Of a DNA stretch of 64,000 bases, positions 2,359 to 50,662 are shown piece by piece (position 1 is the stretch's first letter; each line of letters opens with the position of its first letter). This DNA is from Bradyrhizobium guangzhouense (GTDB lineage: Bacteria > Pseudomonadota > Alphaproteobacteria > Rhizobiales > Xanthobacteraceae), in contig NZ_CP030054.1 in NCBI RefSeq assembly GCF_004114955.1, positions 496,001-560,000 of the forward strand, given 5' to 3'. The position numbers and the translations under genes were made by a program. The notes beneath the pieces were generated by a model. It saw nothing but the letters and a program-made list of their open reading frames with translations. It was not told the origin of the DNA and did not search any database.

Positions 2359-2560
2359 CTTCAACTCGATCTCCTCCTGTTTTGGCTTGCGGTGGGGCTT
2401 GATTATCCGCTTGCCTGGAATAGCGCAATGACACTGCTCGCGACCACTCTCCCAACCGGCTGAGCTACTCGTCGAACATGGCCGCGCGTATGTGGCGCAC
2501 TTTAGATTCACGTGACTAGCTAGTCATCTGGAACGCAAGTTCGTCACATTAGTTGATAGC

Positions 2561-2587
2561 TGAACTTCCTCCCGAATGAGTGGACAC
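2561..2587 (+). repeat. Left terminal inverted repeat of the IS3 element
   Basis: Starts TGAACTTCC and ends in the GTGGAC block; it pairs with the repeat at 5057-5083 with one gap and a few mismatches. Confidence 0.65.
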
Positions 2588-2620
2588 CTGTAGTAGGCTC
2601 GTTGAGCCTGGAGGTGTTGA

Positions 2621-2897
2621 ATGGAACGTGCACGACGGTCGTTTACTGAAGAGTACAAGCGCGAGGCGGCAGGATTGGTGGTGTCGAGCGGCCGCTCGAT
2701 CGGGTCGGTCGCCAAGGAGCTCGGTCTGCGCGACTCAGTGCTGCGGCGCTGGGTCGATAAGCTCCGGCGCGAGCCGGCATCGGCGGCGTGGCGCCCCACC
2801 ACGCAGGCGACGCCGATGTCGGCGGACCAGGCTTCGGAACTCGCCTTGCTGCGCCAGGAGAACGAGCGGCTGCGGATGGAACGCGACATTTTAAAAA
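2621..2897 (+). pseudogene. IS3-family transposase OrfA, 3' end displaced by insertion
   Basis: DNA-binding subunit of an IS3 transposase. The N-terminus reads as a helix-turn-helix (RRSFTEEYKREAAGLV then GSVAKELGLRDSVLRRWV), followed by the leucine-zipper-like stretch ending LRQENERLRMERDILK. At the run of six A residues (2892-2897) the frame runs into foreign IS110 sequence and stops at 2932. The missing tail (KSIAIFAGTRT then stop) is found intact at about 4166-4198, after the insert. The A6G run is the usual orfA/orfB slippage site, so the insertion separates the two transposase halves and should abolish the fusion protein. Confidence 0.8.
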
Positions 2898-4165
2898 ACT
2901 GTCCAGCGTCGTGGCGCGCCTGCGCGGGATAGAAACAGCCTTGTGCTATCATTTAGCTCGGAGGGTAGCGGCCGGAGAGTGGTGACGCCGTTTCGACGGC
3001 GATCCCGATTAGGAAGATGACAAATTGGCATAGCCCAGACCCTCCAGCCCATCATCGGACGGAGGAGTTGCGATGCCTAACAGGACAACCGACCGCGGCC
3101 CGGACCTAAAGCTGGTCAACCTCGGCGCGGCCGCTATCGATATCGGATCAAAGATGCACATGGCCGCGGTAAACCCGGCCTGCACCGACAAGCCAGTGCG
3201 TGCATTCGGCACATTCACGCAAGACCTGCATGAACTGGCGGACTGGTTCAAGATGTGCGGCGTGACCAGTGTCGCGATGGAATCCACTGGGGTCTATTGG
3301 ATCCCAGTCTACGAGATCCTAGAACAGCGCGGGTTTGAGGTCATTCTGGTCAACGCGCGGTACGCCAAGATTGTACCTGGCCGTAAAACCGATCTCAGCG
3401 ATGCCGCTTGGTTACGCCAGCTCCACTCCTATGGCCTGTTACGGGGCAGCTTCCGACCCGATGCCGAGATCGCAACGTTGCGAGCCTATCTACGCCAGCG
3501 CGAGCGGCTCGTGGAATATGCTGCCGCCCATATCCAACATATGCAAAAGGCTCTGATGGAGATGAACCTGCAGCTCCATCATGTTGTGTCGGATATCACC
3601 GGCGCGACCGGCATGCGGATTATCCGAGCCATTGTTGCAGGCGAACGCAATCCCGACCTCCTGGCAACCTATCGGGACGTGCGCTGCCACTCATCGATCG
3701 AGACGATCCGCGCAGCGCTCGTAGGCAATGACCGCCACGAACATGTTTTCGCGTTAGCTCAATCACTGGAGCTCTACGACGTTTATCAGGCAAAGATGCT
3801 CGACTGTGATCGCAAGCTCGAAGTCCTGATCAGTGCATTGAACACCAAAGGAGCAAGACCGGTCGGAAACCTAGCCAAGCCGCGCGTAAAGACCAAGCAG
3901 GTCAACATCCCCACCTTCGATGTCAGGACCGCACTGTACGGAGTGCTGGGCGTCGATTGAGGCGGTGACGGCGACGGCTCGCAAGATTGCGGTTTTATTC
4001 TACAACACACTCCGGCACGGCATGAGCTACAAGGATCCTGGCGCCGACCAATATGAGCAGCAATATCGTAGCCGCGTCCTCGCCAACCTACAGCGCCGGG
4101 CGAAATCGCTAGGCTTCGTGTTGCAGGCCCTCCCGGGCGACGCCAATCCGGCTGTTTCTTAGGAA
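2898..4165 (+). mobile_element. Decayed IS110-family element inserted in the IS3 element
   Basis: About 1.27 kb of sequence lies between the two separated halves of the IS3 orfA. It holds an IS110-type transposase missing its central part and a roughly 175-bp non-coding left end (2898-3072). In intact IS110 elements that non-coding end specifies the bridge RNA. The exact ends are uncertain by a few bases because of the A-rich target. Confidence 0.7.
3073..4162 (+). pseudogene. IS110-family transposase, internally deleted and frameshifted
   Basis: The N-terminal RuvC-like DEDD domain is present: AAIDIGSKMHMAAV, VAMESTGVYWIPVYEIL, and NARYAKIVPGRKTDLSDAAWL, with the acidic residues in place. 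The frame stops at 3960 just after VRTALYGVLGVD. A piece in another frame (about 3966-4130: ARKIAVLFYNTLRHGMSYKD, then QYRSRVLANLQRRAKSLGF) is the normal extreme C-terminus of the family. The stretch between, which should carry the serine-containing Tnp domain, is missing. The gene is therefore dead, by deletion rather than point mutation alone. Confidence 0.8.
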
Positions 4166-4195
4166 GTCGATCGCGATCTTTGCCGGAACCCGGAC

Positions 4196-5056
4196 ATGAG
4201 CTTTCGCTTCATCGAGGACCATCGCGACACCTATCCGGTGCGGCTGATGTGCGCCGTGCTCGAGGTCTCGCCGGCCGGCTACTACGCTTGGCGCGACCGC
4301 CCCGTGAGTGAGCGGACAAAATCCCATGCCGCGCTGCTGGCCGAGATACGGCAGGTCCATCAGGACAGCAGCGGCCGCTACGGCAGTCCGCGCGTCCATG
4401 CCGCCCTGCGCAGGCAGGGACGCAGCGCCAGCCGCGGCCGGATCGAGCGGACGATGCGCCGGCATGGCATCCGCGCCATCACCGCAAAGCCACGCCGTGT
4501 GCGCACCACCGACAGCCATCACGACCTGCCGGTCGCACCGAACCTGATCGCGCGCGACTTCACGGCGGAAGCCCCGAACCGGGTCTGGCTCGGCGACATC
4601 ACCTACATCCCGACCGCCGAGGGATGGCTTTATCTGGCCGCCGTCATGGATCTGTTCAGCCGAAAGATCGTCCGCTGGGCCATGCGCGATCACATGCACG
4701 TCGAGCTCGCCTCCGCAGCCCTGACGATGGCAATCCGGGAGCGGCGGCCGCAGGCCGGATTGATCTGCCACACCGACCGGGGTGTGCAGTACGCTTCGCA
4801 CGCTTATCGCAGCACCCTTATGGAGGCCGGCATGACGGCATCAATGAGCCGCAGGGCCGATTGCTACGACAACGCCCCGATGGAAAGCTTCTTCCATACC
4901 CTGAAGACCGAGCTCGTCCATCATCGCAACTACAAGACCCGCGCCGAAGCTCAACGCGATATCTTCGCCTTCATCGAGGGATTCTATAACCGGACAAGGC
5001 TCCATTCCGCACTCGGATATATCCCCCCGATCGAGATGGAGCTAAAAGCCGCTTAA
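4196..5056 (+). CDS. IS3-family transposase OrfB (DDE integrase)
   Basis: Catalytic half of the IS3 transposase, 286 residues, uninterrupted. An HTH_21-type N-terminus (SFRFIEDHRDTYPVRLMCAV) leads into an rve integrase core with the DDE triad readable at VWLGDITYIP, CHTDRGVQYAS and NAPMESFFHTLK. The ATG at 4196 overlaps the stop of the displaced orfA tail. In intact IS3 elements OrfB is made mainly as an OrfAB fusion by frameshifting; here the IS110 insertion separates it from OrfA, so activity in cis is unlikely. Confidence 0.85.
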   Translation: MSFRFIEDHRDTYPVRLMCAVLEVSPAGYYAWRDRPVSERTKSHAALLAEIRQVHQDSSGRYGSPRVHAALRRQGRSASRGRIERTMRRHGIRAITAKPRRVRTTDSHHDLPVAPNLIARDFTAEAPNRVWLGDITYIPTAEGWLYLAAVMDLFSRKIVRWAMRDHMHVELASAALTMAIRERRPQAGLICHTDRGVQYASHAYRSTLMEAGMTASMSRRADCYDNAPMESFFHTLKTELVHHRNYKTRAEAQRDIFAFIEGFYNRTRLHSALGYIPPIEMELKAA

Positions 5057-5083
5057 CCCGTCCACTTTATCGGGGGAAGATCA
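5057..5083 (-). repeat. Right terminal inverted repeat of the IS3 element
   Basis: Read inward it begins TGATCTTCCCCCGATAAAG then GTGGAC, matching the left repeat at 2561-2587. It lies directly after the orfB stop, as is usual in IS3 elements. Confidence 0.65.
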
Positions 5084-6524
5084 GATCCAGGTCAATGTGT
5101 TGGGCGCCGAACGTCGGCGGGATAGAGTTACTTCGAGTAGGTCTGCCCGGTCGAGGAAATCTTGCAGGCCGGGGAGAGGGTCTGCGGCATCATGCGGCTG
5201 GGATGGCTCATAGGTTCTGTTCACATGGTGTCGGATAACGCCCTATCGATCAGGACGGCGCAAATGACTTACATGCTAGCAGGCATCGGCTGGCGGAGTT
5301 CCACATTGAGTTAGCAGCCGCAGAGCGCAGGCTGAGCGCGGACTCTGTCGCTTCTTGCATTTTGGTGAATCCCACCGCGTCCAATTGCTTATTCACTGCG
5401 TCGCACAAATGTAGATCGCGACGCTGTTCGGGATCCCGTTCCCACCCCGAAAGCGGCGCTGGCAGCCGAGCGTGCGAAGGTTTGGCGATCGGCGCTGAGC
5501 CGTTCGCTGTGGCCTACGCCCAACAGCTACCTTACGGAAGAATGTCGGAACCAAAAGAACTCGAGCCATTTTCTGCGGCCACCACAATGTCTGAAGATCC
5601 TCGGCATTCATTCAGTTCCCGAGAACTGCCGGGCGCCGGGCCGGCCTTAGCGAGGCACCTATGTTGTATGCCGCATGAGAGCTCAAGCCCGCCGAACTCC
5701 CTGGGAAGCAGCGATCATCACTGCAGGATCGATGCGCCTTTGAAGACTGCTCAGAGACGTTCGGCGGATTTTGCCGGCGCGACGATCACGATGTTCGCGC
5801 GCCGGGGACCTTCAGATTGCCGATTGCAAGACACAATCGGTGGCTTGATCGGCGCAATAGCAAAATGGCAGCTCCTGGCTCGACGAACCCACGGCTTGAC
5901 ATCTGTACTACTAGCGCCACTCTTTCCGCTCGCTGGCCTCCGGCCCAAAGCAGCTTTTTTAATAGACAACTGTGAGACCTTCTCACTTATGATCAAAACG
6001 CCGATTGGCCATTCCACGCCCACGCGTCGAGCCTATCTAGCCGTCACTTGCACATGAACTTCGCCTCCAGCCGAGCTCTCAATGATTGCGCTTCAAAAGC
6101 ACAAGGCCATAGCGGTCGGCCGGCTTGTCCGCAAGTCAGCGGCAACAACATCTTTGTGCAGCAGGAGACGGCCGTGATGCCAAGACATACACAACTACCA
6201 GGAACGAAGGCGGACACCCGATGGCATCGATGACGGTGCGTCGGGACGCTGCGGAGAAACTCTCTCGCTCGTGTCCTCGGGCGTCCTGTAGCGACCGCTG
6301 CGGCGCCGGGTACGCCAGCGTGACCCGAATCGGCGCTTACCAGTAAGCTGACAGGATCATACCCAATGAGCGCCGGTTTTCAGTTTCATGTAGCGGCCGT
6401 GCCGTGCCGTCTAGACGCCGTTCTGTTCAAGCGGGATCTGTCGACGAGCCTCGCTTGTTGGAGTGTGATGACGCGGCACGCCACGCTCCGAATCAAAGCG
6501 GCCCGCCTCGTCCTACACTCTACA
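5084..6524. other. Spacer of 1.4 kb without a recognisable gene
   Basis: Open frames exist (for example 5362-6057 on the plus strand) but their translations have no recognisable motif, no good ribosome binding site and biased composition on both strands. I read this as decayed island DNA between the IS3 element and the fixR control region. Confidence 0.5.
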
Positions 6525-6540
6525 TGTCGCGTAAGCGACA
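6525..6540 (+). promoter_or_regulatory. Upstream activator site for fixR (palindrome TGTCGC-GTAA-GCGACA)
   Basis: A perfect inverted repeat of six bases separated by four, which also fits the NifA-type TGT-N10-ACA rule. Its centre lies about 72 bp upstream of the start site inferred from the -24/-12 element at 6580. The B. japonicum fixR-nifA operon has an essential upstream site centred near -68 that binds RegR. Position and symmetry suggest the same role; RegR versus NifA binding cannot be decided from sequence. Confidence 0.6.
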
Positions 6541-6579
6541 TCGAGCCGCGCACATCGCGACTACCGGCCAGGAGACGCG

Positions 6580-6595
6580 TGGCCCGGGTCCTGCA
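6580..6595 (+). promoter_or_regulatory. Probable sigma-54 (-24/-12) promoter of fixR
   Basis: TGGCCCGGGTCCTGCA: the GG (6581-6582) and GC (6593-6594) doublets are separated by ten bases as RpoN requires. There is one mismatch in each half of the consensus TGGCACG-N4-TTGC. It lies 58 bp before the fixR start codon. Confidence 0.6.
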
Positions 6596-6652
6596 GGGCC
6601 ACCTGCTAGCATCATTAGAGTGCGCCCGCCGAGGCGCTATCAGGAGCTTCGC

Positions 6653-7483
6653 GTGACCCTCAATCTGCTGGACCGCCAAAATGTAACAGATGGCGCGCCA
6701 GCGCCCGCCGCGTGCCCATCTAGCAATAAGCGGCGCACTCAAAATGCCGAGGGGAAGACGCTCGTATTGACTGGTGCTTCCCGCGGTATAGGCCACGCGA
6801 CCGGCAAATTGTTTTCGGCAGCTGGATGGCGGATCATCACGTGTTCTCGGCAGCCATTCGAGGGTAGCCGTTGTCCTTGGGAAGCAGGATTGGACAACCA
6901 TATTCAAGCCGAACTTAGCGACTCTCGAGCGTTGCAGCACGCGATCGCGGAGATCAAGGAGCGGCTCAATGGCGGCCCTCTGCATGCGCTTATCAACAAT
7001 GCGGGCATTTCCCCGAAGGCCGCTGACGGCACCCGATTAAATTCGCTGAACACTCCGGTCGACACCTGGAAGAGCGTGTTCCATGTCAATTTGCTCGCAC
7101 CCATCATGTTCTCGCAGGGGCTCTTCCATCAGCTAACGCTCGCTTCTGGTGCAATCGTGAACGTCACCTCGATCGCCGGATCGAGAGTGCATCCGTATGC
7201 CGGTACTGCCTATGCGACATCAAAGGCGGCACTTTCGTGCTTGACCCGCGAGATGGCGCATGACTATGCGCCTTACGGGATTCGCGTCAATGCTATTGCA
7301 CCAGGCGAGATCAAGACAGACATTCTGTCGCCGGAGACAGAAACCAATTTGATCCCAACTATCCCGATGCACCGGGTCGGAACACCGGACGAGGTCGCGA
7401 AGGTTATCTTCTTCCTTTGCTCGGAGGCTGCCAGCTATGTCACAGGTGCCGAAGTGCCTGCAAATGGAGGGCAGCATGTGTGA
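6653..7483 (+). CDS. fixR: FixR, short-chain dehydrogenase/reductase family protein
   Basis: A 276-residue SDR protein of the kind co-transcribed with nifA in B. japonicum; its biochemical role is not established. The cofactor site TGASRGIGHA, the structural NNAGIS block and the catalytic Y-x3-K (AYATSKAALS) are all present, and the C-terminus ends in the usual GGQHV. The GTG at 6653 is chosen because AGGAG lies six bases upstream and the length then matches known FixR; the frame stays open back to 6404. nifA does not follow: the next gene is nifD after 587 bp. Its own control region (6525-6595) appears intact. Confidence 0.82.
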   Translation: MTLNLLDRQNVTDGAPAPAACPSSNKRRTQNAEGKTLVLTGASRGIGHATGKLFSAAGWRIITCSRQPFEGSRCPWEAGLDNHIQAELSDSRALQHAIAEIKERLNGGPLHALINNAGISPKAADGTRLNSLNTPVDTWKSVFHVNLLAPIMFSQGLFHQLTLASGAIVNVTSIAGSRVHPYAGTAYATSKAALSCLTREMAHDYAPYGIRVNAIAPGEIKTDILSPETETNLIPTIPMHRVGTPDEVAKVIFFLCSEAASYVTGAEVPANGGQHV

Positions 7484-7843
7484 TCAGACACCAAGAAGAG
7501 TTACTCACGCGCGATCGATTAATTGGCAGCTCCCGCATGGAGCGTTGAGCGCTCGCGTTACTCCCGACTAGCAATTCCTGATTCCGCAGTTTCGATCCAA
7601 CGGCCACGCCGTACGAGCCAGGATAGCGCCGTTGCTCGCACGCCGCGGCGCGACCGCGATGGCACGCCTCTCGCCTGAGAGATACCACGTTTTGGCCCAC
7701 GTTCCATTCCGGCCGCAGGAACATTTTTTATGAGCTGCCACATAGACGCTAGCCCCGATGCCCAAGGGGCGGCGGCCAGAAGGTGAAATTTATTAAGCGC
7801 GGCCTTTATAAAACAAGTCCCGCTAATATGGCTCGACGGGGCA
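7484..7843. other. Spacer between fixR and the nifD control region
   Basis: This is where nifA follows fixR in B. japonicum. I searched the three forward frames for NifA features (AAA+ GESGTGKE, the C-terminal Fis-type helix-turn-helix) and found none. A short minus-strand frame has no recognisable motif. Confidence 0.5.
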
Positions 7844-7859
7844 TGTCACATTTCGAACA
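7844..7859 (+). promoter_or_regulatory. NifA upstream activator sequence of nifD
   Basis: TGT-CACATTTCGA-ACA, an exact TGT-N10-ACA box, about 100 bp upstream of the -24/-12 element at 7960. That is normal spacing for NifA acting by DNA looping. Confidence 0.75.
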
Positions 7860-7959
7860 ATGCTACGAGTAAGAACATATCAGCACGCGGCTACGTCCAC
7901 TTTGCGACAATCGGGTGCATCGACGCTGTCTGCCTCCGACCTTTTTCCTTCCTATCCGT

Positions 7960-7975
7960 CGGCACACTTGTTGCA
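7960..7975 (+). promoter_or_regulatory. Sigma-54 promoter of the nifDKENX operon
   Basis: CGGCACACTTGTTGCA has GG (7961-7962) and GC (7973-7974) ten bases apart and a perfect TTGCA -12 half. The nifD start codon lies 96 bp downstream. Confidence 0.82.
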
Positions 7976-8070
7976 AACGCCTTCTAATGCAGCCTCGCGT
8001 TAATAGATCGCCAGAAGCGCGCGCCGCGCAAGGCGCCCGATCGTTCAAGCACCGCATCCGAGGAATTCGT

Positions 8071-9573
8071 ATGAGCATAGTCACTACCCAGAGCGCCGCG
8101 GAGATGAAGGCCCGCAACAAGCAACTGATCGATGAGGCCTTAAAAATCTACCCGGAAAAGACCGCCAAGCGCCGCGCCAAACACCTGAACGTACACGAGG
8201 CGGGTAAGCACGATTGCGGGGTTAAGTCGAACCTGAAGTCGATCCCCGGAGTAATGACGACTCGCGGCTGTGCATACGCTGGCTCCAAGGGGGTCGTGTG
8301 GGGCCCGATCAAGGACATGATTAACATCAGCCACGGTCCGGTCGGCTGCGGCCAATATTCCTGGGCTGCACGCCGCAATTACTACATAGGCAAGACCGGA
8401 ATCGACAGCTTCGTCACCATGCAGTTCACCTCCGACTTCCAGGAGAAAGACATCGTGTTTGGCGGCGACAAGAAGCTCGGTAAGGTCATTGACGAACTTC
8501 AGGAGCTCTTTCCGCTCAACCACGGCATTACGATTCAGTCCGAGTGCCCGATCGGCCTTATCGGCGACGACATCGAGGCTGTGTCGAAGGCGAAGTCAAA
8601 GGAACACAATGGCAAGACCATTGTACCGGTTCGCTGCGAAGGGTTTCGCGGCGTCTCGCAGTCGCTTGGCCACCACATCGCCAACGATGCGCTGCGGGAC
8701 TGGATCCTGGACAGAGTGTCGCCGGAAGCGACACCCGCGTTCGAGTCAACGCCCTACGATGTCACGATCATCGGCGACTACAATATCGGTGGGGACGCTT
8801 GGTCATCGCGTATCCTGCTCGAAGAGATGGGCCTGCGTGTGATTGCGCAATGGTCCGGCGACGGCAGCCTCGCCGAACTGGAAGCAACGCCCAGGGCGAA
8901 GCTCAACCTATTGCACTGCTACCGTTCGATGAACTACATCTCCCGACACATGGAGGAAAAGTTCGGCATTCCATGGTGCGAGTACAACTTCTTTGGCCCT
9001 TCCAAGATCGCCGATTCGCTGCGCAAAATTGCCAGCTTCTTCGACGAACGCATCAAGGAAGGTGCCGAGCGTGTGATCGCCAAGTACCAGCCGCTGATGG
9101 CCTCGGTAATTGAGAAGTACCGCCCCCGCCTCCAGGGCAAGACAGTGATGCTGTTCGTCGGCGGCTTGCGTCCCCGCCACGTAATCGGCGCCTATGAGGA
9201 CCTTGGTATGGAGGTCGTAGGAACGGGCTACGAATTCGGCCATCATGACGACTACCAGCGCACTGCTCAGCACTACTTAAAGGACGGCACACTGATCTAT
9301 GACGACGTCACGGGCTACGAGTTTGAGCGTTTCGTCGAGACCATTCAGCCAGATCTCGTCGGCTCCGGCATAAAGGAGAAGTACGTCTTCCAGAAAATGG
9401 GCATTCCATTCCGTCAAATGCACTCCTGGGACTATTCCGGTCCTTATCACGGCTATGACGGCTTCGCGATCTTCGCTCGTGACATGGACATGGCAATAAA
9501 CTCGCCCGTCTGGAAGAAACTCAAGGCACCTTGGAAGGATACTCCAGCGCCAGGCCTAATGGCCGCGGAATAA
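8071..9573 (+). CDS. nifD: Nitrogenase MoFe protein alpha subunit
   Basis: Forms the alpha2beta2 MoFe protein with NifK; it binds FeMo-cofactor and part of the P-cluster in the cytoplasm. It has 500 residues. P-cluster cysteines are visible at C67 (GCAYAG), C93 ([10 protein letters not shown]) and C159 ([11 protein letters not shown]), and the cofactor ligands at C283 ([10 protein letters not shown]) and H451 (QMHSWDYSG). The ATG at 8071 is preceded by AGGAA and gives the conserved MSIVTTQS N-terminus; the frame remains open to 7915, but that stretch overlaps the promoter. First gene of a nifDKENX run controlled by the NifA box at 7844 and the sigma-54 promoter at 7960. Confidence 0.97.
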
Positions 9574-34694: not shown

Positions 34695-35795
34695 CTAGAA
34701 GTTTTCAGTGTTTTGGCAGTGGTGAGGATAACCCGAGCAGCCCCAGAATTTGAAATGGGTTGTGTGATTCTCCCGGATTTTCATAGAGCGACCGCAGGCG
34801 GGGCAGGTCTTGCGAGCAAATACCCGCTGGTCCTTCGCCAGCGTCATGATCCTGACTTCGCCGGCGCCGCTGGCGGCGAGTGTCCGGACACATTCCCCGG
34901 TGGTCTCCCCGGTCGTGTAGACATCGTCGATCAGCAAGATCTTGTTATTGTTCCATCTGAAATTAGAATGGAAAGCGCCTTTGATTGCTTCGGCGCGCTC
35001 CAGCGAATTCATCTGCTTGTAGCCCTCGATTTCCTTGACGACACGCAGGCCCTTCAGCTCCAGTTCGATGTCCTCATCGAAATGATCTGCTGCCTCATTG
35101 AGCAGCAATTCAAAGCGATTGCGCTGTTGAGAAGGCTTCATCGGAACCGGCACAACATAGTCCGGTGCCCAGTCGAGGGTTGCGATGGCTCGACCTACGG
35201 CCTCACCGAGAATCTTGGCGTGGGTATCATCACTCTTCAGCGACAACACGGCTGCGCTCACGCTTCGCCAATATAGCCGCGGCCAGGAATGTTCGCGTCT
35301 CAGCAAGGTGGATGCCTTCGACATGAAGACGTCCGGTGCACTGGAGGAAAGCTCGAAGATTGACGTAGGCCCCCATCGGACCGCAACAGAAGTCACCCCG
35401 GCATGGTAACTGGCTTCGATGTCACCGACATCATCACCGATGTAGAGCGTTTCCGTCGTCGCAGCCACGCCGACACGACGTAGCGCTTCCAGGATCGGCT
35501 CGGGGTCGGGTTTGTGGTTCTGGGTATTGCCGTAGCTGACCAGCACGTCGTAAGGGATGCGGAATTGCTGGAGGACTGAAGTCGCGTACCATTCAGGCGA
35601 AGAGGTGACGATGCCGATCCTCTGTCCGTCCGCCCTGAGAAGGGCGGGAAGCTCATGAGGCGCCGCGCGGCCTTGCGCGGGGAACGGCCGGATCAGATGC
35701 ATATTCTGCCGGACATTGTCCCACATCTGAAAGCGACGTTGCTGCGCAATGGCCGAGCTATCGAAAAGCGTCATGTCGAGGTCAAACAGGAACAT
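34695..35795 (-). CDS. HAD hydrolase-phosphoribosyltransferase fusion with C-terminal zinc finger (ShosT-like)
   Basis: A 366-residue three-part protein. Residues 1-160 are a HAD phosphatase: FDLDMTLFDSS (nucleophile and acid aspartates), IVTSS, NHKPDP and GDDVGD are motifs I-IV. Residues 200-325 are a ComF-like phosphoribosyltransferase with DYVVPVPMKPSQQRNRFELL and the PRPP loop ILLIDDVYTTGET. Residues 330-362 hold two cysteine pairs, CPACG and CSGYPHHC, a zinc-ribbon-like tail. It lies eight bases downstream of a DprA-like gene. A DprA plus phosphoribosyltransferase pair is the hallmark of the ShosTA toxin-antitoxin/anti-phage system, in which this partner is the toxin. Toxicity here is inferred, not shown. 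Confidence 0.8.
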   Translation of the reverse strand: MFLFDLDMTLFDSSAIAQQRRFQMWDNVRQNMHLIRPFPAQGRAAPHELPALLRADGQRIGIVTSSPEWYATSVLQQFRIPYDVLVSYGNTQNHKPDPEPILEALRRVGVAATTETLYIGDDVGDIEASYHAGVTSVAVRWGPTSIFELSSSAPDVFMSKASTLLRREHSWPRLYWRSVSAAVLSLKSDDTHAKILGEAVGRAIATLDWAPDYVVPVPMKPSQQRNRFELLLNEAADHFDEDIELELKGLRVVKEIEGYKQMNSLERAEAIKGAFHSNFRWNNNKILLIDDVYTTGETTGECVRTLAASGAGEVRIMTLAKDQRVFARKTCPACGRSMKIRENHTTHFKFWGCSGYPHHCQNTENF

Positions 35796-35803
35796 CCCAG
35801 CCG

Positions 35804-36856
35804 TTAGAGCATCGACATCTGCGTGGGTGACGACGGCGGAGCGACTGTTTGGGTTTCGCCACCAGCCAAGCGGCTTTCCAATAAGCCAAGCATGGAGGCG
35901 TAGTCTTCCTTGCTGGCTAGCGGCACAGCCACCGGGCGGTTGCCATACCTCTCGGCGAGTATGCGTCGGTAGTCACCTTCAGCCCGCACAGCTTCGGCGA
36001 AGCGGCTCGCGGGCAACTGCGTCATGGCCAAGATGCCCTGGCTCTTAGGCTCTGTGGCATGACGGCCCTGCGGCACTGGCGCAAACAGCACGCGGTCCTG
36101 TTGGATCGTGAAGCGCACCGTGTGCATCGAGCCGCCCTTGATGTCTGTCTGCATGACAAAGGTTGCTATCGAAAGCCCGCTTTGCAGGCGATCGCGCTGC
36201 ACAAGATTGCGCGGGGATGGCGGCACGCCGAAAGGCTGCTCGCTGATCAGCGCGCCATCCTTTTCCAGAATCTCTTCGGCGAGCTTGCTATTCTGCTTCG
36301 GGTAAATGCCCTCAAGACCACCCGCCATCACAGCGACGGTCCGCCCGCCGTGATGCAATGCGCTTTGGTGGCTCAACGTATCGACGCCGATCGCAAGGCC
36401 ACTCACGATCGCCCAATTGGCGCCGACCAGTGTCTCCACGATCCTATCGCTGACGATTTCGCCGAATTCGGACGGCTCGCGCGTGCCGATGCAAGCGACG
36501 CTGCGGCGCGGCGGAAGCTGGCCCTTCACAAACAGGATGGGCGGGCGATCGGCAAGAGAGCGCAGAGCCACTGGATAATCCGTATCGAAGATCGACAGAA
36601 CACGCACCCCACGCCGATCCGCCTCGTCGAGCACTCGCTGTGCCTTCTCGCTGGCTTTAACAATGGCGGCGGGCTCCTGAAGGCATTCAGCCACCGCGGC
36701 CGAAACGACCGATCGAAGCTTCGCAGGCTCGGCGCCCAAAATCGCTTCAAGAAGCGAGAATCGTTCAGCGAGACGCTCGGCCGTAGCAGGGCCGATACCG
36801 CGCAAAGCGGTGAGTGTGAGAATGCCGGCTGCAGTTCGTGTCTCGGTGCCAATCAT
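35804..36856 (-). CDS. DprA/Smf-like SLOG-fold protein (ShosA-like)
   Basis: About 350 residues. An N-terminal helix-hairpin-helix (LTALRGIGPATAERLAERF) precedes the SLOG Rossmann domain: VACIGTREPSEFGE, VSGLAIGVDTLSHQSALHHG, GGLEGIYPKQN and ISEQPFG. It departs from housekeeping DprA in the ssDNA-binding block, where RNRIIAGLS-type sequence is replaced by RDRLQSGLSIATFVMQTDIK. The DprA winged-helix C-terminus is not evident. Start ATG 36856 has AAAGGCG upstream; TTG 36865 is possible. The next gene, eight bases on, is the HAD-phosphoribosyltransferase. The pairing suggests an antitoxin role as in ShosTA rather than natural transformation. Confidence 0.8.
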   Translation of the reverse strand: MIGTETRTAAGILTLTALRGIGPATAERLAERFSLLEAILGAEPAKLRSVVSAAVAECLQEPAAIVKASEKAQRVLDEADRRGVRVLSIFDTDYPVALRSLADRPPILFVKGQLPPRRSVACIGTREPSEFGEIVSDRIVETLVGANWAIVSGLAIGVDTLSHQSALHHGGRTVAVMAGGLEGIYPKQNSKLAEEILEKDGALISEQPFGVPPSPRNLVQRDRLQSGLSIATFVMQTDIKGGSMHTVRFTIQQDRVLFAPVPQGRHATEPKSQGILAMTQLPASRFAEAVRAEGDYRRILAERYGNRPVAVPLASKEDYASMLGLLESRLAGGETQTVAPPSSPTQMSML

Positions 36857-36865
36857 CGCATTCAA

Positions 36866-37244: not shown

Positions 37245-38357
37245 TCAGCTGTGTGTGTCAACGAGCGAGTAGCTGGTGCTTCTGCCCCCGGCGGCATCTT
37301 TCTTAAGGATGCCATGTTCGATCAATTCCTCAATGTCCCTTGCCGCCGTCGCCTGGGAGACCTTCGTTAGCTTTGCCCACTTTGAGGACGTTAGCTTGCC
37401 CTCAAATCCATCGAACAGGCAATTAAGCACAGTTCGTTGACGTTCATTGAGCTGGCGAGCCGCATGACGATCCCAGAAGTCCGCTTTCTGGAGAATTCTC
37501 CCGAGAATGGCATCCGCGTTGTCAAAGGCGCGATCTAAGCAATCCAGGAACCACGCCATCCAATCGGTGATGTCGAGGTTTCCTTTCTGGATCCGCTCGA
37601 GAATTGAGTAGTAGTCGTTCCGCTCGCGCCGAATCTGCGCGGACATACTGTAAAACCTTTGCGGGCTCCGCTCTGATCTTGCCAGCGCAAGGTCAGCGAT
37701 CGCACGCGCAATACGACCGTTGCCGTCTTCAAATGGATGGATGGTCACGAACCAAAGATGAGCGAGAGCGGCCTTCAACACGGGATCGATGCTAACGATA
37801 TTACGGTTAAACCACTCCAAGAAGGTCTGCATCTGCGCATCGAGACGCTCGGCCGATGGAGCTTCATAGTGTACGCGCTCGCGACCCATCGGGCCCGAGA
37901 CAACTTGCATGGGTCCAGTCTCGACCGTCCGCCACGCGCCGACGACTATCTTGGTCATACCGCTGCGCCCAGTGGGGAAGAGCGCGGCATGCCAGCCGAA
38001 GAGGCGTTCGGCAGTTAGCTCCTCGGCATAGTGTTCGGTGGCGTCGAGGATCATCTCGACCACGCCTTCGACGTACCGGTCGGCAGGGATAAGGCCCCCA
38101 ATGTCCATACCAAGATGACGAGCGATGGAGGACCGAACCTGCGCATGATCGAGGATCTCACCCTCGATCTCACTCGACTTCACCACTTCTTCAGTGAGGG
38201 TCTGAAGAGTAGCCTCAGTTTTGAGGGGGAATCCGAGCCGCTCCATCCGGCCGAGCAGGCGGCCCTGCTTATGACGGACCGCCGCCAATCGGTCTGCAAT
38301 CCGCTGCATATCCCAAGTGAATGTGGGCCAAGCAGGCAGTTCATGAATGTAGGCCAT
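37245..38357 (-). CDS. Fic-family AMP-transferase, class II with N-terminal inhibitory helix
   Basis: A 370-residue Fic protein that would transfer AMP (or another nucleotide) to target proteins. The inhibitory motif (S/T)xxxE(G/N) is present near residue 65 as SSEIEGE, so the enzyme is probably self-inhibited. The catalytic loop HPFEDGNGRIAR is complete. The Fic_N domain (PAWPTFTWDMQRIADRLAAV) precedes it, and a C-terminal winged helix (KWAKLTKVSQATAARDIEEL) suggests DNA binding and perhaps autoregulation, consistent with repeated sites over the start codon. It is one of three Fic genes or pieces in the window and the only intact one. Confidence 0.88.
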   Translation of the reverse strand: MAYIHELPAWPTFTWDMQRIADRLAAVRHKQGRLLGRMERLGFPLKTEATLQTLTEEVVKSSEIEGEILDHAQVRSSIARHLGMDIGGLIPADRYVEGVVEMILDATEHYAEELTAERLFGWHAALFPTGRSGMTKIVVGAWRTVETGPMQVVSGPMGRERVHYEAPSAERLDAQMQTFLEWFNRNIVSIDPVLKAALAHLWFVTIHPFEDGNGRIARAIADLALARSERSPQRFYSMSAQIRRERNDYYSILERIQKGNLDITDWMAWFLDCLDRAFDNADAILGRILQKADFWDRHAARQLNERQRTVLNCLFDGFEGKLTSSKWAKLTKVSQATAARDIEELIEHGILKKDAAGGRSTSYSLVDTHS

Positions 38358-49438: not shown

Positions 49439-50662
49439 TTAGAGCTCCTTGTAGATCGGGATCGTCTCGGTATGTGCATCGATGACTTCGATGACTTGTC
49501 GTTGCAGCGGGAGTTCTGTCTTGCGCTCCTTCCAAAGTTTCTTGAAGCGCTGCACCGTTTCCGCAGCCGTTTCGAGCGCAAGCGTCTCCGACATCTTCGC
49601 CTTGGCAGCCAGATGCGCCAGCTCGTCCTTTGAGAATTCGGCCATCTTCTTCGTGCGCGAATAGTTCAACGCCATCTTGTCGTCCGGGATGTACGCAATA
49701 GTCGAGAGCAGATCGTAGGCGGGCGACAGGACGGGTGTCCGCCCATCAGGGTAGATCAATGACCAGTTCTTCAGGTGCATGTCGGCGTTGCCGATCAGTG
49801 TGCTGAATACGAGTCGTCGGACGAACTCGGCGAGGTCGGCCTCACCAGTCTCAATGCCGAGGACACGCGCGATGCTTCGGTAATTCGCCTTGTCGTATTT
49901 TTCATCCGGAAAGACGCCGAATACCTGAGCGAAATCCTCCATGTGGACCGGAGCATCAGCCGTGCGGTCGAACCGCTTCACGGCAAACGCCCGCCCCTCG
50001 AGTTCGCCGATTCCGTCCGGAAGACCTTTGATTGCCTCGACGTCGATCAGTTGAAGCTCGGGCACATCCATGCCGATGTCCTTCGCCAGGGTCATCATGG
50101 AGTATTCGTTCTCAGGCACGCCGATATACTGATGTGACGGTAGCTTGACGATCCATGAACCGCCGACACCTTCGACCGGAATAGTGAGTCCGCCCTTCTT
50201 GGGATCATTCTTGAGCGCGGAGAACTTCAGCTGCACGCCCGCAAGCGAGAAGCGCATCATGTTCTGCCGTTTATCGGGCGTAAGATTCTCCTCGACCTGG
50301 GGGGGCAGCGCGTCTCCATCGGCCGGGTGGACCGACAGGGCACCCGGAAGGTCTCGGCCCAGCATCCACAGGAGGAAGAACTCGCGCCGTTCCTTCACGC
50401 CCGCCCGTTCCGCAAGATAGCGACGAAGCGGCCCTTCCGGCAGAAGATTGGAGAAGAATGGCGCGAGAACTTGTTGATACGGTTTGAACGAGGTGAGCAG
50501 ATTCCCGAACGAGTCCTTGAAAGACAGGCTCAAGGTGGAACGGTGGGCGTCATCGATGTAGGTCTGATTGAAGGCGAGCAGCGAACGATCGCCCTGCACG
50601 AGTGTGAGAGTCGCGATCGGGGTATCGTGCAGGTGGACATTTAGAACGGATACGTCAGGCAT
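49439..50662 (-). CDS. hipA: HipA-like toxin kinase
   Basis: HipA-family serine/threonine kinase, 407 residues; E. coli HipA phosphorylates glutamyl-tRNA synthetase and induces persistence. The HipA N-terminal subdomain (VLNVHLHDTPIATLTL) is followed by the kinase core with RFSLAGVQLKFSA, GSWIVKLPS, ENEYSMMTLAKDIGMDVPEL, the catalytic STLIGNADMHLKNWSLI and the metal-binding SPAYDLLST. Start ATG 50662 has GAGGA five bases upstream and overlaps the end of the XRE gene by eight bases; the frame is open to 50824. Confidence 0.9.
   Translation of the reverse strand: MPDVSVLNVHLHDTPIATLTLVQGDRSLLAFNQTYIDDAHRSTLSLSFKDSFGNLLTSFKPYQQVLAPFFSNLLPEGPLRRYLAERAGVKERREFFLLWMLGRDLPGALSVHPADGDALPPQVEENLTPDKRQNMMRFSLAGVQLKFSALKNDPKKGGLTIPVEGVGGSWIVKLPSHQYIGVPENEYSMMTLAKDIGMDVPELQLIDVEAIKGLPDGIGELEGRAFAVKRFDRTADAPVHMEDFAQVFGVFPDEKYDKANYRSIARVLGIETGEADLAEFVRRLVFSTLIGNADMHLKNWSLIYPDGRTPVLSPAYDLLSTIAYIPDDKMALNYSRTKKMAEFSKDELAHLAAKAKMSETLALETAAETVQRFKKLWKERKTELPLQRQVIEVIDAHTETIPIYKEL

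Follow-up and report, generated by a model that had tools for sequence, protein, structure and literature searches.

A ShosTA-type gene pair on a Bradyrhizobium symbiosis plasmid, with a probably weakened or inactive toxin

Homologues of DprA are the antitoxins of the shosTA, syrTA and rqlHI systems, and the DprA–phosphoribosyltransferase (PRTase) pair of P2-like phages guards Escherichia coli against T7 and lambda, as set out in PMC9122126. A review (PMC12593503, on Pu et al. 2025) summarizes ShosT as a PRTase and pyrophosphatase that upsets purine metabolism, with DNA duplications, filamentation and death as the outcome; in its account ShosA binds DNA and probably promotes recombination, and T7 Gp0.7 is a trigger. 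ShosTA is placed among the systems activated by phage single-stranded-DNA-binding protein or by replication intermediates in PMC10732053, and the system of Pseudomonas filamentous phages, including PfAC02a, is listed as ShosTA in PMC11878078. Here, we describe a gene pair of this type in a 64,000-nt stretch (the window) of Bradyrhizobium guangzhouense (NZ_CP030054.1, positions 496,001 to 560,000), which belongs to contig C2 in a genome of two contigs. On balance we favour the reading that this is a horizontally acquired ShosTA-type pair whose toxin is inactive or attenuated in the window copy. Our literature search found no paper naming both ShosTA and Bradyrhizobium; the pair would extend ShosTA-type systems to rhizobial symbiosis plasmids.

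The gene pair and its place among DprA-based systems

Two open reading frames (ORFs) were verified on the minus strand, with a gap of 8 nt between them. The features discussed below are:

35804..36856, minus strand: ShosA-like DprA/SLOG protein, putative antitoxin/sensor, 350 amino acids (PADLOC ShosA model and Pfam)
34695..35795, minus strand: ShosT-like HAD–PRTase–zinc-ribbon protein, putative toxin, 366 amino acids, shortened from 411 (Pfam, PADLOC and alignments)
35295..35795, minus strand: HAD phosphatase domain with intact catalytic motif residues (HAD profile built without the window, 210 bits)
35261..35285, minus strand: lesion, 25 nt out of frame between two deletions (DNA alignment and split profile matches)
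34830..35258, minus strand: remaining PRTase domain with its phosphoribosyl pyrophosphate (PRPP) loop, N-terminal G-R-Y-F stretch gone (PRTase profile)
34695..34814, minus strand: C-terminal zinc ribbon of topoisomerase I type, CPACG ... CSGYPHHC (Pfam Zn_ribbon_Top1)

The original prediction described a DprA/SLOG gene followed 8 nt downstream by a HAD–PRTase gene, and this arrangement is confirmed. The HAD motifs, PRPP loop and cysteine-rich tail that it named in the second protein are likewise there, as read directly from the residues: the HAD part has D-x-D, T/S, K-P and GDxxxD, and the PRPP loop is ILLIDDVYTTGET.

The DprA-like ORF runs from an ATG at 36856 to a stop at 35804, with a longer version from a TTG at 36865 possible. 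It encodes an N-terminal helix-hairpin-helix followed by a Rossmann SLOG domain (Pfam HHH_5, 27.0 bits; DNA_processg_A, 191.6 bits). The PADLOC ShosA model PDLC03961 matches protein residues 13–264 at E 2e-73 (245.3 bits), compared with 93 bits for the PsyrA model. The specificity of the ShosA model is not complete. At E up to 1e-60, 5 of 14 control genomes give a match, as do 76 of 385 alphaproteobacterial genomes, where many of the hits are DprA genes of small genomes (204–228 bits).

In the toxin, Pfam HAD_2 scores 65.7 bits, while Pribosyltran (E 7.8e-5, 22.5 bits) and Zn_ribbon_Top1 (E 7.3e-6, 26.1 bits) fall under their respective cut-offs of 26.3 and 32. Among NCBIfam results covering 25 of 39 families, the HAD part passes the HAD-IA subfamily cut-off (45.8 bits vs 23.3); the top named enzymes, phosphoglycolate phosphatase (67.5 bits) and PpaX pyrophosphatase (61.3 bits), are both far under theirs, and the PRTase part resembles ComF at 35.4 bits, far from the cut-off of 233.55. 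The ShosT model PDLC03962 gives a weak match of 19.8 bits over positions 275–324 only, and PDLC03012 gives none at E up to 1. Elsewhere, PDLC03962 scores 22.6 bits on an intact orthologue and 62.8 bits on the ShosT of PfAC02a. The PADLOC profile check put forward with the original prediction gave a strong match for ShosA and a weak one for ShosT.

By structure, the 50 Foldseek rows listed for a model of the 411-residue orthologous form are, by title, nearly all HAD-type phosphatases or HAD-bearing enzymes at TM-scores of up to 0.58, and no row is named ShosT. Sequence searches of solved structures found ShosA (PDB 9vzo) and no entry named ShosT, one of these searches covering 60 of 82 matches.

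What the window offers towards a ShosTA assignment is a DprA recognized by the ShosA model, an adjacent same-strand PRTase partner, and a patchy, mobile setting. Because the models are unspecific, the assignment rests on the pairing, the domain layout and alignment with annotated ShosTA. The profile results that count against our reading are that housekeeping-like DprA genes of other genomes reach 228 bits with the ShosA model; that the ShosT model is unspecific, with matches in 13 of 14 control genomes; and that a genome-wide ShosT search (E up to 1e-3) omitted the window toxin and returned three other places on contig C1, at up to 37.5 bits.

Two annotated or well-matched systems serve for comparison. 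In the P2-like phage Peduovirus P24C9 (PADLOC ShosT PDLC03012, 973 bits; ShosA PDLC02997, 765 bits), as in the window, a DprA-like gene is followed by a PRTase toxin and the pair sits on a mobile element. There too, a HAD-like region (Pfam Hydrolase, E 2.9e-4, under cut-off) precedes the PRTase. However, that region lacks the motif I aspartates in P24C9 ShosT and in one relative (2/2, by eye), and the HAD profile match in P24C9-type ShosT is weak and restricted to the later motifs, whereas the HAD set of the window is complete. The window toxin also has a zinc ribbon where none appears among the Pfam matches of P24C9 ShosT. In PfAC02a, ORF6/ORF5 (OR790968) are annotated in GenBank as ShosT/ShosA and consist of HAD–PRTase–two zinc ribbons plus DprA. 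The order HAD, G-R-Y-Y, PRTase, topoisomerase-type zinc ribbon is shared with the window family, as are QRDR and GGS-H in ShosA; unlike in the window, the toxin gene comes first, there are two zinc ribbons and the toxin is unshortened. The PfAC02a toxin is 30% identical to the orthologue in a Pseudolabrys metagenome-assembled genome. With the ShosA score of 245 bits, the layout of the PfAC02a pair and the patchy, mobile distribution described below, the proposed membership of the ShosTA class is upheld.

A system of PsyrTA/RqlHI type, in which a RecQ-like toxin is paired with DprA, would share the DprA antitoxin. The PsyrT model slightly outscores ShosT on the window toxin (28.9 vs 19.8 bits), and an E. 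coli plasmid carries, next to DprA, a helicase-type toxin with HAD and PRTase at its N-terminus. Yet the PsyrT match is confined to the PRTase end of the model (positions 610–684 of 689) and is the only match to a helicase-type toxin among the 9 Pfam and 4 PADLOC families that hit the protein; no helicase domain was found among these. With PsyrA also far behind ShosA on the partner, we regard this assignment as very unlikely.

The DprA motifs differ from those of the host's own DprA, a separate chromosomal gene on C1 with the usual motifs: GTR vs GSR, QRDR vs RRNR and GGSMH vs SGSL. The change is not particular to this locus. GTR, RDR and GG[ST][ML]H are common to all eight ShosA-like rows aligned, and since all of them share it, the altered motif is, at the level of the alignment, a mark of the whole ShosA-like branch. 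P24C9 ShosA differs in keeping RNR and having SGTSH, as does the solved ShosA 9vzo, whose aligned stretch is the same as that of P24C9. As ShosA is reported to bind DNA (in the review PMC12593503), an altered motif is by itself no argument against DNA binding. The motif change noted in the original prediction, where it was taken to speak against a transformation role, is real but a feature of the whole branch.

Plasmid setting, distribution and orthologues

Around the pair, a stretch of 31,098 nt matches a Bradyrhizobium guangdongense plasmid of 981,946 bp at 100% identity; nearby on that plasmid lie nifH, nifB and other nif genes. The locus had been placed in a symbiosis island; the symbiosis setting holds, and symbiosis plasmid is the better description. 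A 100% identical toxin is encoded on five plasmids of 979–982 kb, of which four come from peanut nodules and one comes from peanut roots, as well as on a B. zhengyangense contig.

Beyond these, the toxin is rare. Of 264 Bradyrhizobium genomes, 7 contain a match at E up to 1e-20. Across the order, 2 of 397 sampled genomes match, namely the window's own and one that matches in the HAD part only. Among 100 relatives, including the window's own genome, the full-length toxin is present in at least 2 (own included), and the other matches listed reach at most 43.4 bits and cover parts of the HAD or PRTase only. At the level of the phylum, 3 of 398 sampled genomes pass 1e-69 with ShosA; apart from the window's own, these are two genomes with a PRTase, one of which also gives a weak HAD match. 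Scans of viral contigs with the rhizobial alignment and the PfAC02a ShosT found no relatives. Remnants were also seen: a B. septentrionale plasmid retains the C-terminal half of the toxin between an IS3 element and a SIR2 gene, and a plasmid of Bradyrhizobium strain 155 retains a short C-terminal toxin fragment. Judged from this distribution, the pair is horizontally acquired, patchy and mobile. Vertical inheritance in the Bradyrhizobium core, part of the outcome that would have spoken against the original prediction, does not apply, given 7 of 264 genomes and the host's own DprA on C1.

Orthologous pairs with the same gene order and domains as the window were found in the Pseudolabrys genome, Bradyrhizobium sp. 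Leo170, Ensifer, Sinorhizobium fredii and three Mesorhizobium. Their toxins are all 411 amino acids long, against 366 in the window, and are 77–86% identical to it in six cases and 71%, with gaps, in S. fredii. A defence gene follows the toxin in 3 of these 7 intact loci, the downstream genes of the other four being unscanned. In Pseudolabrys and S. fredii, a Ppl-like AAA gene lies directly downstream of ShosT (PADLOC Ppl, 109 bits). In Leo170, a SIR2 gene follows the toxin, as it does behind the B. septentrionale fragment (745 and 742 bits), and HerA comes after SIR2. A PADLOC scan recognized no defence gene beside the window pair except a Fic gene. The HerA of Leo170 (4611–5836 of the fetched stretch) is split over two frames, which could be a draft-assembly error or a broken gene.

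Identities over the two halves of the toxin differ between relatives, with 83.6% (HAD half) and 78.8% (PRTase half) between the window and Ensifer, and 74.5% and 86.4% between the window and Leo170. These differing values hint at module recombination within ShosT, with weak support in the HAD-half tree.

A lesion at the start of the PRTase domain

Compared with the intact orthologues, the window toxin lacks 42 internal and 3 N-terminal residues, and its start codon is shifted three codons downstream. DNA alignment with four intact orthologues, which sets the junctions to within about 1 base, places a 2-nt deletion near 35285/35286 and then a 124-nt deletion near 35260/35261, 25 nt apart. As 126 nt are lost in all, the frame returns, and the 25 nt in between are read out of frame. 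The lost segment spans the residues leading into the PRTase domain as well as its first residues, with the G-R-Y-F/Y motif among them. All seven intact orthologues that we fetched have 411 amino acids in a single frame and keep G-R-Y-F. The original prediction missed this deletion of the PRTase start.

The motif is conserved more widely. G-R-Y-F/Y is present in 6 of 7 alignment rows, including PfAC02a and a Psychrobacter plasmid protein, and the window is the sole exception. Among 16 ShosT-like PRTase domains, which were hand-picked and include four close orthologues, G-R-Y-F/Y occurs in 9 and G-x-Y in 12. With a PRTase profile, the match of the window begins at position 18 (162.6 bits), that of the intact rhizobial orthologues at position 3 (192–196 bits); the profile contains four of those orthologues and not the window, which favours the orthologues. 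The window copy does not have a full-length PRTase domain, and the missing segment was not found elsewhere in the genome (best E 0.52).

The lesion is shared by 6 of the 7 matching Bradyrhizobium genomes, which show split matches to positions 3–178 and 217–411 of 411, while the seventh has an unbroken match to 1–411. It is not a sequencing error, since the identical protein is on five plasmid records and the B. zhengyangense contig. Four lesioned loci are 100% identical to the window over 11–31 kb, although two of these probably derive from a single 50,443-bp contig. As far as these alignments go, the lesion belongs to one recently spread plasmid haplotype.

With the PRTase start lost, it is doubtful that the toxin is active, and from the comparison with its orthologues we conclude that the window toxin is probably weakened or inactive. 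There is, however, evidence pointing the other way. The frame was kept through two indels; the HAD motifs, the PRPP loop and the zinc ribbon are all preserved; the PRTase half has evolved no faster on the window branch than on the Pseudolabrys branch (0.032 vs 0.035); and the shortened gene is present in six genomes of one genus. Given the kept frame and motifs and the unaccelerated PRTase half, the shortened protein could still be functional, in which case the lost stretch would be a dispensable linker plus the edge of the PRTase domain. Set against a fully functional ShosT of 366 amino acids are the conservation of the lost G-R-Y-F in 7/7 intact orthologues and in distant PRTases, and the PRTase profile match, which is some 15 positions and 30 bits lower even if the profile orthologues favour themselves; the spread through six genomes can be explained by the single plasmid haplotype. 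We consider full function rather unlikely.

Pairwise ratios of non-synonymous to synonymous substitution (dN/dS) are 0.045–0.105 for both genes, with several dS values above 1, and chiefly record the period that preceded the lesion. Since the lesioned proteins are identical, tests for relaxed selection in the period after it are uninformative. AlphaFold models of the 411- and 366-residue proteins, built from seven alignment rows, have predicted local distance difference test (pLDDT) scores of 51 and 48, too poor to judge the lesion.

The opposite extreme is a decaying relic under no selection that has been caught early. This overlaps with our preferred reading and differs in claiming that no function at all is retained. 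The lesion and the shifted start codon would fit, as would the longer HAD-half branch in the window (0.122, compared with 0.047 in Pseudolabrys) and the plain remnants on the B. septentrionale and strain 155 plasmids. On the other hand, both ORFs are open, the antitoxin is full length and the catalytic residues are intact. A relic is a possibility that we take seriously but doubt.

For an attenuated or inactive ShosT beside a complete ShosA, the following picture can be drawn by analogy with published ShosTA. In intact relatives, the PRPP/nucleotide chemistry of ShosT would upset the nucleotide pool and cause DNA damage, and the DprA-like ShosA would neutralize ShosT until infection frees the toxin. 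The HAD domain is a candidate for a pyrophosphatase or nucleotide phosphatase step in these intact members, and the zinc ribbon and DprA may place the complex at DNA. On the symbiosis plasmid of the peanut Bradyrhizobium, two frame-keeping deletions removed the beginning of the PRTase domain, and the window copy would then be a presumably disarmed toxin, attenuated or inactive, retained with its antitoxin. The toxins of 411 and 366 amino acids make a natural pair of states with which to probe the part of the PRTase needed for toxicity. They also carry a caution, in that a locus that looks like defence by gene content may hold an inactive toxin.

HAD phosphatase and PRTase modules at related loci

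The HAD module and the C-terminal zinc finger had been proposed as elaborations of a rhizobial member. This does not hold, as both are also present in the phage PfAC02a ShosT and in the Psychrobacter plasmid protein, whose pair has the same domains and motifs as the window and PfAC02a pairs. The C-terminal zinc ribbon is kept in the orthologues, and PfAC02a and Psychrobacter ShosT have a second cysteine-rich stretch.

The position of the HAD domain varies. It is N-terminal, together with PRTase, in the E. coli plasmid helicase-type toxin beside DprA; C-terminal to PRTase in Priestia; and fused to the ShosA-like DprA in one protein in Deinococcus wulumuqiensis pDrdI (3386–4804 of the fetched stretch), where no PRTase match was found in 8.8 kb. 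In Sinorhizobium meliloti pHRB800, Rhizobium leguminosarum CB782, Segatella copri and Hymenobacter pHB, a separate HAD gene is the third member. These three-gene PRTase–DprA–HAD sets have the domains of the window in adjacent same-strand genes, with HAD on its own, unlike the fusion in the window. Motif I D-x-D, K-P and GD are kept in 13/13 HAD domains aligned (window excluded), and the window HAD keeps them too. The pair points to the HAD phosphatase being shuffled among these systems as a module and not simply added on. One literature search for a HAD together with DprA and PRTase in a defence context gave a single paper, by its title on a Pseudomonas genome.

Samples of loci give the frequency of these partners. 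Nine other alphaproteobacterial loci with a ShosA-like gene, defined as scoring at least 239 bits, were taken from the 385 genomes; the 239-bit line was drawn after the list had been viewed, and three of the nine stretches as well as several controls are cut by contig ends. A PRTase-like ORF, in some cases weak (19–34 bits), adjoins the ShosA-like gene in 6 of the 9. At 11 lower-scoring, housekeeping-like DprA loci, there was neither PRTase (0/11) nor HAD (0/11). In a further ten plasmid and phage loci from ShosA searches, which were chosen by us and in some cases for an annotated HAD, the fetched stretch contained HAD in 6, PRTase in 7 and neither in 2.

These counts also bear on whether the DprA-like protein simply serves recombination or natural transformation beside an unrelated HAD/ComF-like nucleotide enzyme. 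The housekeeping DprA equivalog model TIGR00732 scores 172.9 bits on the protein, and ComF is weakly matched by its neighbour at 35.4 bits. Both scores are under the cut-offs (191.15 for TIGR00732), so the protein is not called as a housekeeping DprA equivalog. A separate housekeeping DprA on C1, the patchy distribution and the contrast between 6/9 and 0/11 PRTase-bearing loci all go against this alternative, which we consider highly improbable.

That HAD is a universal third component was considered and rejected, as none of the other alphaproteobacterial ShosA-like loci (0/9) has it.

A broader proposal can be put forward only tentatively. HAD could be a third component that recurs, with its catalytic motifs complete, in one large ShosTA/PsyrTA-like branch and shifts between toxin, antitoxin and a separate gene, and the peanut plasmid could have fixed a frame-kept version with a disarmed toxin together with its antitoxin, possibly as protection against related addiction or defence modules instead of as a killer.

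Several further loci were noted in these searches. In phage phiOH2, a DprA gene is followed by a PRTase with G-R-Y-F and a cysteine-rich tail but no HAD match (1164–2396 and 2425–3630 of the fetched stretch), making a ShosTA-like pair. In Salmonella phage SopEPhi, orf14 and orf15, annotated as 'unknown' (2367–2948 and 2938–3915 of the fetched stretch), score 60 bits with ShosT and 238 bits with ShosA and would be a ShosTA-like pair without HAD. On Rhizobium beringeri pRlX1, a ShosA-like gene (5191–6934 of the fetched stretch) split over two frames lies behind a HAD–PRTase ORF, and a further PRTase-like ORF follows at 7008–8162. A plasmid of Agrobacterium sp. S7/73 has a stand-alone HAD resembling that of ShosT (587–1099), with no DprA annotated in the 5 kb fetched.

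In the window itself, a promoter and terminator scan gave results at chance level only, and Rfam gave nothing at gathering scores. The nearest upstream neighbour of the pair, 388 nt from the ShosA-like gene and on the same strand, is a Fic-domain gene (37245–38357, minus strand; DUF4172, Fic and winged helix; PADLOC SoFic, 172 bits). By eye, no Fic gene was recognized next to the pair in the relatives, where no scan for Fic was made. Further away, at about 49439–50662 on the minus strand, there is a HipA-family toxin gene with a helix-turn-helix partner, according to the annotation of the identical B. guangdongense plasmid.

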